Source: a virus. Taken from it: a stretch of DNA of 37,562 nt. Of this stretch, positions 16,187-36,906 are shown piece by piece. Below the pieces are notes generated by a model. That model was not told the DNA's origin and ran no database searches. It saw nothing but the letters and a program-made list of their open reading frames with translations. The DNA is taken from positions 1 through 37,562 of the IMG/VR virus record IMGVR_UViG_3300020394_001883; one strand, 5' to 3'. The translations under genes were made by a program, and so were the position numbers. Within the stretch, counting starts at the first letter, position 1, and every line of letters begins with the position of its first letter.

Positions 16187-16747
16187 TTATTCTCCAAATT
16201 TATATCCAAAATATTCTATGTCCTTTGCATATCGCTCCGCAACGATTTCACGGGTTTCGTCATCGTAATATTCGGTGTAGTGCTTGCGGTTACTTTTGTT
16301 TATGTGTGGAAGTTTTCTGCGAGAAATGCCAATTTTGTCGCATACAATGTTAAAGCCTTCTTGGAAGTTTTCAAATTTTATTATATAATCCATAGCAATT
16401 TTATCATTTAGTTTTAAATGATTATAATTTACAGCGTCGAACTCATCATCAGCAAATTTAAATAAGTATTCATTAAAACCTCGCAAGCAATGCATATGAT
16501 TTTCGTGGCCTTTATCTTGTTTGATGTATTCGTATCTTGAGACTTCTCGATCCCAAGGGTTTCGTACAATGCAAAACTTAAAATAGGTTTGAAATATCAT
16601 TTCGGATAATTTCTCTTTAATTTCAAATAAAGTTGAGTGATGGGGGTCATGCAATTCATCATACATGCCTTCCATTGCTACTCGCAAGCTTGTTCCTGCT
16701 GTTTTTGGCACATGCACAAATATGAATTTATATTTGTGACTTATCAT
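16187..16747 (-). CDS. Sulfotransferase (paralogue 1)
   Basis: 186 aa. PAPS-binding motifs: VHVPKTAGTS (residues 11-20, 5'-phosphosulfate loop) and CIVRNPWDREVSR (about 59-71, 3'-phosphate loop). The C-terminal block (KHYTEYYDDETREIVAERY, then AKDIEYFGYKFGE) is almost the same in the genes at 16750 and 19158. SD-like GGAGAG lies 6 nt before the ATG, inside the end of the upstream gene. Small soluble sulfotransferases of this family sulfate carbohydrates. Confidence 0.85.
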   Translation of the reverse strand: MISHKYKFIFVHVPKTAGTSLRVAMEGMYDELHDPHHSTLFEIKEKLSEMIFQTYFKFCIVRNPWDREVSRYEYIKQDKGHENHMHCLRGFNEYLFKFADDEFDAVNYNHLKLNDKIAMDYIIKFENFQEGFNIVCDKIGISRRKLPHINKSNRKHYTEYYDDETREIVAERYAKDIEYFGYKFGE

Positions 16748-16749
16748 CT

Positions 16750-17340
16750 TTACTCTCCAAATTTATAACCGAAATATTCAATGTCTTTTGCGTACTTTTT
16801 TTCAACTATAGATTTTGTCTCGTCATCATAGTATTCGGTATAGTGTTTGTGTTTTGTTTTGTTTTTGTGTGGAAGTTCTTGATGTGGAATTCCTATTTTG
16901 TCGCATATCGTTTTAAAGTCTTCTTGCAGGTTTTTAAATTTTGCAATATAGTCGATTCTTTTTTTATCTACAAAAAAATTAATCTGTGGGATGTTATGAT
17001 TTGGATAGGAGTGTGTGTCTATTTCACCATTCACCACAAATGTTTTAAAATCACGAGATTGTGTCAACCCTCTCCTTCTCGAATAAAAGTATTCACTTAC
17101 GATCCTGTCAAACGGATTTCTTACTACTGTGAATTTAAAGTAACTCTTCAATTCTTGTTTTGAATAAATTTTATAGTAATCATCCAGCGTTCTATGTGGA
17201 TTGCATAAAAATTGGTTAGGTCCGTTAAAACGTCTAGCATTATCATCCATGCCACACGTATCAGTCAAAGCCATCTCAATTGATCGTCCTGATGTTTTTG
17301 GGATATGAATAAAAAGAAATTTATGTTTATGGTTTATCAT
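16750..17340 (-). CDS. Sulfotransferase (paralogue 2)
   Basis: 196 aa. IHIPKTSGRSIEMAL (residues 11-25) and TVVRNPFDRIVSEY (71-84) are the two PAPS-binding loops. The C-terminal HYTEYYDDETK...FGYKFGE block is shared with paralogues 1 and 3, while the middle is different, so acceptor specificity probably differs. It overlaps the dehydrogenase gene by 14 nt. Confidence 0.85.
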   Translation of the reverse strand: MINHKHKFLFIHIPKTSGRSIEMALTDTCGMDDNARRFNGPNQFLCNPHRTLDDYYKIYSKQELKSYFKFTVVRNPFDRIVSEYFYSRRRGLTQSRDFKTFVVNGEIDTHSYPNHNIPQINFFVDKKRIDYIAKFKNLQEDFKTICDKIGIPHQELPHKNKTKHKHYTEYYDDETKSIVEKKYAKDIEYFGYKFGE

Positions 17341-19157: not shown

Positions 19158-19949
19158 TCATTCTCCAAATTTATATCCAAAATATTCGATATCTTTTGCG
19201 TATTTTTCTGCAACAATTTGACGGGTTTCGTCATCGTAGTATTCTGTGTAATGTTTCCGATTTGTTTTATTTTTGTGTGGAAGCTCAGGATTTGCTATTC
19301 CAAGTTTGTCACAAACAGTTTTAAAGTCTTCTTGCAGGTTTTCGAACTTTCCCACAAAATCAACTGCAATGTTTTCGTTTTCTACAATAAAACTAGATTG
19401 AGTTGCAAAATGATCTGCTCTACCATCACGGTTATTTAAGTGGTTTATTGTAGCAAAAAATCCCTCTTGGAGAAGATAGTTTTTGAGTGGCTCAGTAGGT
19501 TTTATGTCTGCTTGCTCTTGGAGATAAATCCAATCGGAAACAGCTTTGTCCCAAGGGTTTCTAACAAATGCAAATTTAAAATAATCTTTTTTATTACTAA
19601 AATCTTTTATACTTGCGTGTTGTAGCCATTTTGCGCCATCAAAATAATGAAACCAATGGTGTTTATAAAAAGAAGGTATTTCTAATATTCTATTTTCTTT
19701 GTGCCCAAATTTTAAAAAATGAGATTTGCCAAAATTATATTTTGAAGCGTCTCTTGACTTTTGCCATATATTTGACAGATCTTCAAAGTGGTCAACATAT
19801 TCTTCGAAATTAAAGTGTTCAAGGCATTCGTTTATTATAAAATCCTTTAAAGGGTTGATACCATACCAGTCAATAAAAAAGTTTTCGATTGATGTTCCTC
19901 CAGTTCTTGGGATATGAACAAAAATTAAATTTAAAAATTCAATTTTCAT
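19158..19949 (-). CDS. Sulfotransferase (paralogue 3)
   Basis: 263 aa, the longest of the three paralogues. VHIPRTGGTSIENFF (11-25) and FAFVRNPWDKAVSDW (125-139) are the PAPS loops. The extra length is a His/Trp-rich insert between them (about 30-120), probably acceptor-specific. The C-terminal KHYTEYYDDETR...FGYKFGE block matches paralogues 1 and 2. Its ATG overlaps the TGA of the gene upstream (ATGA). Confidence 0.85.
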   Translation of the reverse strand: MKIEFLNLIFVHIPRTGGTSIENFFIDWYGINPLKDFIINECLEHFNFEEYVDHFEDLSNIWQKSRDASKYNFGKSHFLKFGHKENRILEIPSFYKHHWFHYFDGAKWLQHASIKDFSNKKDYFKFAFVRNPWDKAVSDWIYLQEQADIKPTEPLKNYLLQEGFFATINHLNNRDGRADHFATQSSFIVENENIAVDFVGKFENLQEDFKTVCDKLGIANPELPHKNKTNRKHYTEYYDDETRQIVAEKYAKDIEYFGYKFGE

Positions 19950-24469: not shown

Positions 24470-24707
24470 TAAGTTCTTCTTCTGTTGCGGGAGGACATAA
24501 AAGTATAATGTCTGTTACATCTTTGCTTTCTGAAAATTTATGTACATCCTCCATCCCTAAGCCTTCTTGCTCTTTTGACATATACAGTGCCGCTCTGATC
24601 CCGCAATCTTCGAACCAGTCTACATGTAGCAATTGCCTTAGGTTGACAAAATCTTTAAATGTTTCCCTCATGTGAAAATCTAAATATCTTAACCCTAAAT
24701 TACTCAT
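24459..24707 (-). CDS. Hypothetical protein, 82 aa
   Basis: Begins MSNLGLRYLDFHMRET; a mixed sequence with HVDWFEDCGIRAALYM in the middle and an acidic end. No family recognised. ATG overlaps the stop of the gene upstream. Confidence 0.5.
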   Translation of the reverse strand: MSNLGLRYLDFHMRETFKDFVNLRQLLHVDWFEDCGIRAALYMSKEQEGLGMEDVHKFSESKDVTDIILLCPPATEEELNGK

Positions 24708-24963
24708 AATAATTTGAAGATTTGAGCATTAATTTAACATAGTCAAGTGTATATTTTATGGCTGCAATTTTTATTCTAAGCTCCTCTTTTTCTTCTTCTA
24801 AAACCCTATTTAGATCTTTTTTCATGTATTGAGACATAATTTTTTTATTTAAAATGTTTTGTTCGGAATCTCTTTCTGTTAGCATTTTTTTATGGGCAAA
24901 TAGAACGTCTTCAATATGCTGTATAGCATCTTTGCCTGTTTTATTGTTTTTAATGTAAACCAT
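24700..24963 (-). CDS. Coiled-coil hypothetical protein, 87 aa
   Basis: Begins MVYIKNNKTGKDAIQH; then one long charged helix with heptads (LNRVLEEEKEELRIKIAAI). First gene after the ncRNA terminator. Its ATG is 6 nt after TATTAT, with no good -35 box, so it may be read by a weak promoter or by read-through of the terminator. Confidence 0.5.
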   Translation of the reverse strand: MVYIKNNKTGKDAIQHIEDVLFAHKKMLTERDSEQNILNKKIMSQYMKKDLNRVLEEEKEELRIKIAAIKYTLDYVKLMLKSSNYYE

Positions 24964-24995: not shown

Positions 24996-25028
24996 TAAAA
25001 ACAAAAACCCTAGGTAAGCCTAGGGTTT
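24996..25028 (-). terminator. Intrinsic terminator of the ncRNA
   Basis: Minus-strand RNA AAACCCUAGG-CUUA-CCUAGGGUUU: a perfect 10-bp stem with a 4-nt loop, followed by UUGUUUUU. Confidence 0.9.
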
Positions 25029-25280
25029 AAAATGGTGTGGGGAAGGACTACTGTATACCTCCAACTTTTCGGCGTGAACATCAGTTCTATGTTACCTACT
25101 TCGAACTACAAATCAGACTCGGCACATGGTCTTTAGCTCATCCGATTGGACTCTGCTACCCCGCCACAGGGGATCTGCATACCTTAGCCCGCTCACGACA
25201 GGCTTAGTTCGGTCACCCACAGGAAGGATTATAAGCCCTTCCAAAAGTGTTTAAAATGTTAAAGATCAAAAATAAATTAT
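24996..25280 (-). ncRNA. Independent structured ncRNA, about 280 nt, family unknown
   Basis: A promoter at 25287-25315 and a terminator at 24996-25028 bracket a segment without an ORF and with clearly higher GC than its surroundings. Visible pairings in the RNA: GGAAGG/CCUUCC hairpin near the 5' end, UGUGGG with CCCACA joining 5' and 3' parts, AGCCU/GGGCU, CCCC-UGUGGC-GGGG, and CC(G)AACU/AGUUGG. An alternative outer helix joins GGAAGGGCU to AGUCCUUCC. I tested it by eye against tmRNA, RNase P, 6S, SRP, tRNA and group I signatures and found no match. It could be a phage regulatory or structural RNA. Confidence 0.75.
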
Positions 25281-25286
25281 GTGTAT

Positions 25287-25315
25287 ATATTACTATATTG
25301 AATTCGTTTTGTCAA
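25287..25315 (-). promoter_or_regulatory. Sigma70-type promoter of the ncRNA
   Basis: Minus strand TTGACA (25315-25310), 17 nt, TAATAT (25292-25287). Start expected near 25280; no ORF follows. Confidence 0.85.

Positions 25316-36508: not shown

Positions 36509-36906
<398 letters not shown>

Follow-up and report, generated by a model that had tools for sequence, protein, structure and literature searches.

The minus-strand segment 25034–25242 of IMG/VR virus record IMGVR_UViG_3300020394_001883 (37,562 nucleotides, analysed in full and referred to here as the window) is indeed a structured RNA, and its family is known: the manA RNA (RF01745), of which it represents a divergent subtype, designated type B (manA-B). 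Judging from the signals that surround it, manA-B appears to be made from its own transcription unit behind a boxA-like element, in the window as well as in dozens of uncultured marine phages, a stand-alone form that is not described in the manA literature we found. We regard manA-B as probably a free-standing noncoding RNA gene of these phages, and its most likely origin would be that of a stable phage RNA made by the host's Nus/boxA route.

Results

The RNA is preceded by a sigma70-type promoter at 25287–25315 on the minus strand (TTGACA at 25315–25310, a 17-nt spacer and TAATAT at 25292–25287; 10/12 matches), from which transcription would start near 25280, and it is followed by an intrinsic terminator at 25005–25028 (minus strand), a perfect 10-bp stem of the form AAACCCTAGG-CTTA-CCTAGGGTTT that leads into TTGTTTTT, with its U-rich tail at 25004–24996. 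The predicted transcript of ~285 nt agrees with the ~280 nt given in the preliminary description. The G+C content of the segment is 51%, compared with 33.5% for the window, a value reached by 0.3% of 209-nt stretches, and on the minus strand the segment contains no ORF >43 aa. A+T-rich sequence (15% G+C) makes up the leader between promoter and manA RNA. Coordinates, base composition and ORF check thus bear out the early view of a GC-richer, ORF-free structured segment bracketed by promoter and terminator. The folding energy of the segment is unremarkable (z = -0.99) and uninformative by itself, unlike the comparative evidence below.

An Rfam scan at curated thresholds returned two matches in the window, tmRNA (36509–36906) and manA RNA at 25242–25032, the latter scoring 70.8 bits (gathering score, 55.2; E = 3.1e-16) and covering model positions 1–192 of 192. 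The preliminary description had seen no known family here, a claim that falls with this significant, full-length match above the gathering score; its exclusion of tmRNA, RNase P, 6S, SRP and group I RNAs holds, manA being the only family matched at 25032–25242. CRISPR-repeat-like matches on the terminator (RF01359, RF01334) scored far below threshold and were rejected; they arise because the terminator is a palindrome. GOLLD, ROOL and HEARO, which like manA-B are large structured noncoding RNAs of phage genomes, gave no match to the window in the Rfam scan. The type B RNA is smaller than GOLLD and ROOL.

The original 2010 description presents manA as a candidate cis-regulatory RNA whose occurrence was nearly confined to marine metagenomes and T4-like cyanophages and which may lie in the 5' UTRs of sugar (mannose/fructose), nucleotide, chaperone and photosynthesis genes (Weinberg et al., PMC2864571). 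Its structure was corrected in Rfam 14.3 (PMC7779021). Rfam classes it as cis-regulatory ('Cis-reg'), and no ligand or tested function was found reported in the literature. The 209-nt RNA of the window, recognized by Rfam, by covariation and by a type B covariance model, shares with canonical manA the full-length model match, the helix order (P1, the closing helix P0, P2, P3, P3a-c and P5, plus a pseudoknot) and the conserved core (GGUAUACAGUARUCC, UAAGGU and the closing helix). It differs in that P0 reads GUGGG/CCCAC instead of the canonical GGGAG/CUCCC, in a longer 3' half, in the boxA-like leader and the terminator of its own, and in not standing ahead of a sugar, photosynthesis or gp32 gene. 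The 5'-UTR context given in the 2010 description, which lies outside the family's defining model, does not hold for the window or for 31 of 36 relatives, where a strong terminator comes next, and the next ORFs tested matched no Pfam or PHROG family.

Scanning IMG/VR with the conserved 15-mer GGTATACAGTARTCC yielded 81 contigs, made up of chance matches and two kinds of manA: a cyanophage form with AACCTCCC (type A; 177–181 Rfam bits in the two loci scored) and the window's form with YYYCCCACA (type B; 66–93 bits in relatives). After further scans the type B set comprised 36 distinct full-length sequences and additional divergent ones, all from uncultured phage contigs apart from two bins labelled Rickettsiales and Neomarinimicrobiota, whose copies may be on mis-binned phage contigs. 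A covariance model built from type B alone (R1) detects six type A loci with 39–47 bits (E 2e-12 to 7e-10), and types A and B are therefore homologous. At blastn sensitivity, no match to type B was obtained among 50,697 isolate phage records, compared with 37 cyanophage and marine virus records matched by type A. Isolate phages and plasmids yielded no close DNA relatives of substance, one large type B phage has a terminase whose best isolate matches are just 22–26% identical, and a gp23 search for a T4-like origin of the type B phages, run without a positive control, gave no match. With the T4-like cyanophage manA (S-CREM1, in which manA is annotated, PMC9964418; 37 records) type B has in common the RNA family, marine phages as carriers and a host-type promoter directly upstream; unlike type B, the cyanophage copies examined are promoter-proximal mRNA leaders with neither terminator (0/16) nor boxA.

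A structure of 47 base pairs, written out from the window sequence, was tested on the 36-sequence type B alignment. Across the 36 relatives 96.0% of cells are paired, both-side changes occur in 24 of the 47 pairs (12.2 ± 2.0 in shuffles), and the covariation score is 0.301, compared with 0.154 for shuffles and ≤0.109 for slid versions of the structure; covariation, for which the preliminary description had proposed to look in related phage genomes, is thus present. The hairpin P1 (GGAAGG...CCUUCC; 25222–25242, minus strand), at the 5' end, is paired in 96.8% of cells and shows compensatory variants. The preliminary description had set this hairpin against a mutually exclusive outer helix, GGAAGGGCU/AGUCCUUCC, which was rejected, since it is paired in 77.8% of cells and decays to 4/9 paired where P1 changes. 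Within type B the closing helix P0 does not vary (UGUGGG/CCCACA); what supports it is the different sequence of the helix in type A (GGGAG/CUCCC).

Clear covariation support now exists for a loop–strand pseudoknot of manA, formed by CGUGA in the P2 loop (25193–25197, minus strand) and UCACG ~120 nt downstream (25073–25077, minus strand). It is paired in 98.9% of cells in the 36 relatives, and among 40 sequences it occurs in six fully compensated versions (CGUGA/UCACG, GAUGA/UCAUC, UGUGA/UCACA, CAUGA/UCAUG, CACAA/UUGUG and GACAA/UUGUC), with 4–5 pairs in 40/40. PMC2864571 marks a pseudoknot with a question mark, which may be this one. By eye, an isolated pair of columns near 25103 and 25065 (minus strand), corresponding to the third base of UUCG and the base after AAAA in the type B alignment, covaries between C-G, G-C and U-A with no neighbouring pairs, a pattern that suggests a single tertiary base pair.

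The layout seen in the window recurs in its relatives. Among type B loci with enough flank, an equivalent promoter (≥10/12 matches, 16–17-nt spacer) and a boxA-like sequence lie upstream in 33 of 35, the boxA pattern having a background expectation of 0.18 per 450 nt. Of the 36 type B loci, 31 have a strong intrinsic terminator ahead of the next ORF, whereas none of 16 type A loci has one and random positions gave 44 in 300. Beyond this terminator, many type B loci show a further TTGACA promoter. Type B copies for the most part thus look like separate transcription units, and the stand-alone structured RNA gene of the preliminary description gains support from covariation and from a promoter, boxA-like leader and terminator layout common to ~35 relatives. 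Between promoter and boxA many loci carry a small hairpin, TTGAGAA..AAACTCAA, that the window, L006 and L035 do without.

The distance from boxA to manA is 24–25 nt in simple loci and rises to >200 nt elsewhere because other RNAs are inserted after boxA. In ~17 loci, 60–250 nt of further hairpin RNA, most of it folding better than shuffles, separates the two (companion RNAs in L025, L038, L048, L050, L061, L081, L083–L085, L087, L089–L091, L093–L095, L097 and L126), and companion RNAs also follow manA (L022, L083, L086, L061 and L098). L126 has two companions in tandem; L022, the continuation of its contig, carries manA and one more unnamed RNA ahead of the terminator. Some companions recur, for example those with GCAAATATGCGGAGG.. 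and CTGAGTATCGGRC.. motifs, and where scanned they matched no Rfam family at gathering scores.

The boxA-like element of the window, GATCTTTAACA (25257–25267, minus strand), lies within TTGATCTTTAACATTTT (25269–25253), between promoter and RNA. It agrees at 10 of 11 positions with GYTCTTTAANA, the boxA consensus of gammaproteobacteria (PMC5725501), which may not be that of the host, and its single mismatch is an A where that consensus has a pyrimidine; GTTCTTTAATA, GTTCTTTAACA and GTTCTTTAAAA of relatives match exactly. As an independent test, IMG/VR was searched for exact copies of the 19-nt leader TTGATCTTTAACATTTTAA alone; of the 14 contigs recovered, 13 have it at the head of a type B manA unit and one is unrelated. 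No matching boxA was seen in the single 16S leader examined, that of bin G002, a bin to which the phage contig may have been wrongly assigned.

The tmRNA genes of the same phages show a comparable leader. tmRNA is encoded by 10 of the 11 type B phages tested, and in a survey of the genes with a readable start, the window's included, nearly every one has a GTTCTTTRAMA-like sequence ending a few bases upstream; most of the phage tmRNA leaders match GYTCTTTAANA exactly. The combined boxA-plus-tmRNA pattern was found in 20 contigs, a count that holds by construction. In the window, the boxA-like GTTCTTTGAAAA (36923–36912, minus strand) stands directly upstream of the tmRNA gene identified by Rfam (36906–36509, minus strand). 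Two known stable RNA genes of these phages thus carry boxA-like leaders. The window's tmRNA gene also has a TTGACT-17-TATACT-like promoter, and most tmRNA genes of the other type B phages are likewise preceded by a promoter and a boxA-like sequence.

Discussion

boxA elements are known upstream of rRNA, suhB and CRISPR arrays, and on rRNA and CRISPR arrays they improve transcription of long untranslated RNA (PMC5725501; PMC7862264). The type B units resemble the rRNA and CRISPR-array cases in that the consensus stands between a promoter and a long untranslated RNA, and they differ from all three in that a phage encodes the element and that the genes behind it are those of manA-family RNA and tmRNA, Nus binding being putative; no report of boxA at phage noncoding RNA genes was found in the open-access literature. 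By analogy with rRNA, the Nus complex of the host (NusB together with ribosomal protein S10) would bind the leader boxA, shield RNA polymerase from Rho-dependent termination on the untranslated manA-B RNA and assist its folding, and the finished, stable RNA might then act in trans, its binding partner being a ligand, a protein, or the transcription or translation machinery of the host.

The chief alternative is that manA-B is a cis-regulatory leader, a riboswitch-like sensor whose fold sets termination at 25028–25005 ahead of the next ORF (87 aa; 24700–24963, minus strand), which belongs to no Pfam or PHROG family. This is possible, though we consider it rather unlikely. Homologues of the ORF directly follow manA-B in all four other loci found (L148, L149, L150 and, by eye, L085), in L148 and L149 at 15–17 nt and with no terminator between, and the only separate promoter candidate for the window's ORF is a weak match at 24999–24972; such conservation beside the RNA suits a cis role and counts against a free-standing RNA. 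The 'Cis-reg' label of the family points the same way, as do the cyanophages, where in most loci a gp32 (SSB) or transaldolase gene begins 20–56 nt beyond the type A copy, with no terminator between. However, most type B copies precede a different ORF family, which encodes an 84-aa protein and has a TTGACA promoter to itself beyond the terminator. We saw no conserved antiterminator pairing, the alternative outer helix is unconserved, and a boxA leader with extra RNAs would be unexpected for a simple attenuator. The earlier proposal of an attenuator for the operon at 24963 accordingly keeps some plausibility in the window's sublineage, because the ORF homologue follows manA-B in those four loci, but it does not extend to most type B copies, which look like separate units. 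Homologues of the 24963 ORF were found only adjoining manA-B RNAs. In many type B phages (L002, L009, L059, L087 and others) the gene immediately beyond the manA-B terminator encodes the conserved 84-aa protein (MKTLKDILSNYGY...), of which the member tested matched no Pfam or PHROG family.

A transcript that begins with a boxA-like element and a structured RNA, in a promoter-proximal position that type A shares, would also befit an element of processive antitermination or transcription control with a role like that of put RNA or a boxA-containing nut site, in which the nascent manA fold and boxA would modify their own polymerase for genes further downstream. A strong terminator directly after the RNA in 31 of 36 type B loci would nevertheless end such a transcript, and type B units restart from a new promoter beyond it, which makes this explanation very unlikely. 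We give even less credence to the idea that the boxA-like sequence is a coincidental stretch of A+T-rich leader, kept by common descent or, for example, for RNase processing, in front of an ordinary manA copy: the leader's base composition and the one-base departure of the window's copy from the published consensus fit it, but the element is retained unchanged even as inserted RNAs shift its distance to manA between 24 and >200 nt, and its perfect consensus form recurs before the unrelated tmRNA gene.

On the preferred reading of manA-B as a free-standing RNA gene, a family regarded since 2010 as a cis-regulatory candidate would include a large stand-alone subtype, co-transcribed with unnamed RNAs behind a boxA-like element, which points to a trans-acting or host-takeover role. 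If so, the stable RNAs encoded by phages would join rRNA and CRISPR arrays among the products of the Nus/boxA route. More tentatively, and with somewhat less than even confidence, we propose that many uncultured marine phages possess rRNA-like noncoding RNA operons, each consisting of a host-type promoter, a boxA that would recruit the host Nus complex, one to four structured RNAs with manA-B as the constant member, and a terminator, with boxA also placed before tmRNA; manA would then be primarily trans-acting, with some cyanophages using it as an mRNA leader.

Elsewhere in the window, at 16187–17340 and 19158–19949 (minus strand), three sulfotransferase-like paralogues lie near genes for a nucleotide-sugar epimerase, a dehydrogenase and a glycosyltransferase, and together with these neighbours they form a sugar-modification island in the phage.
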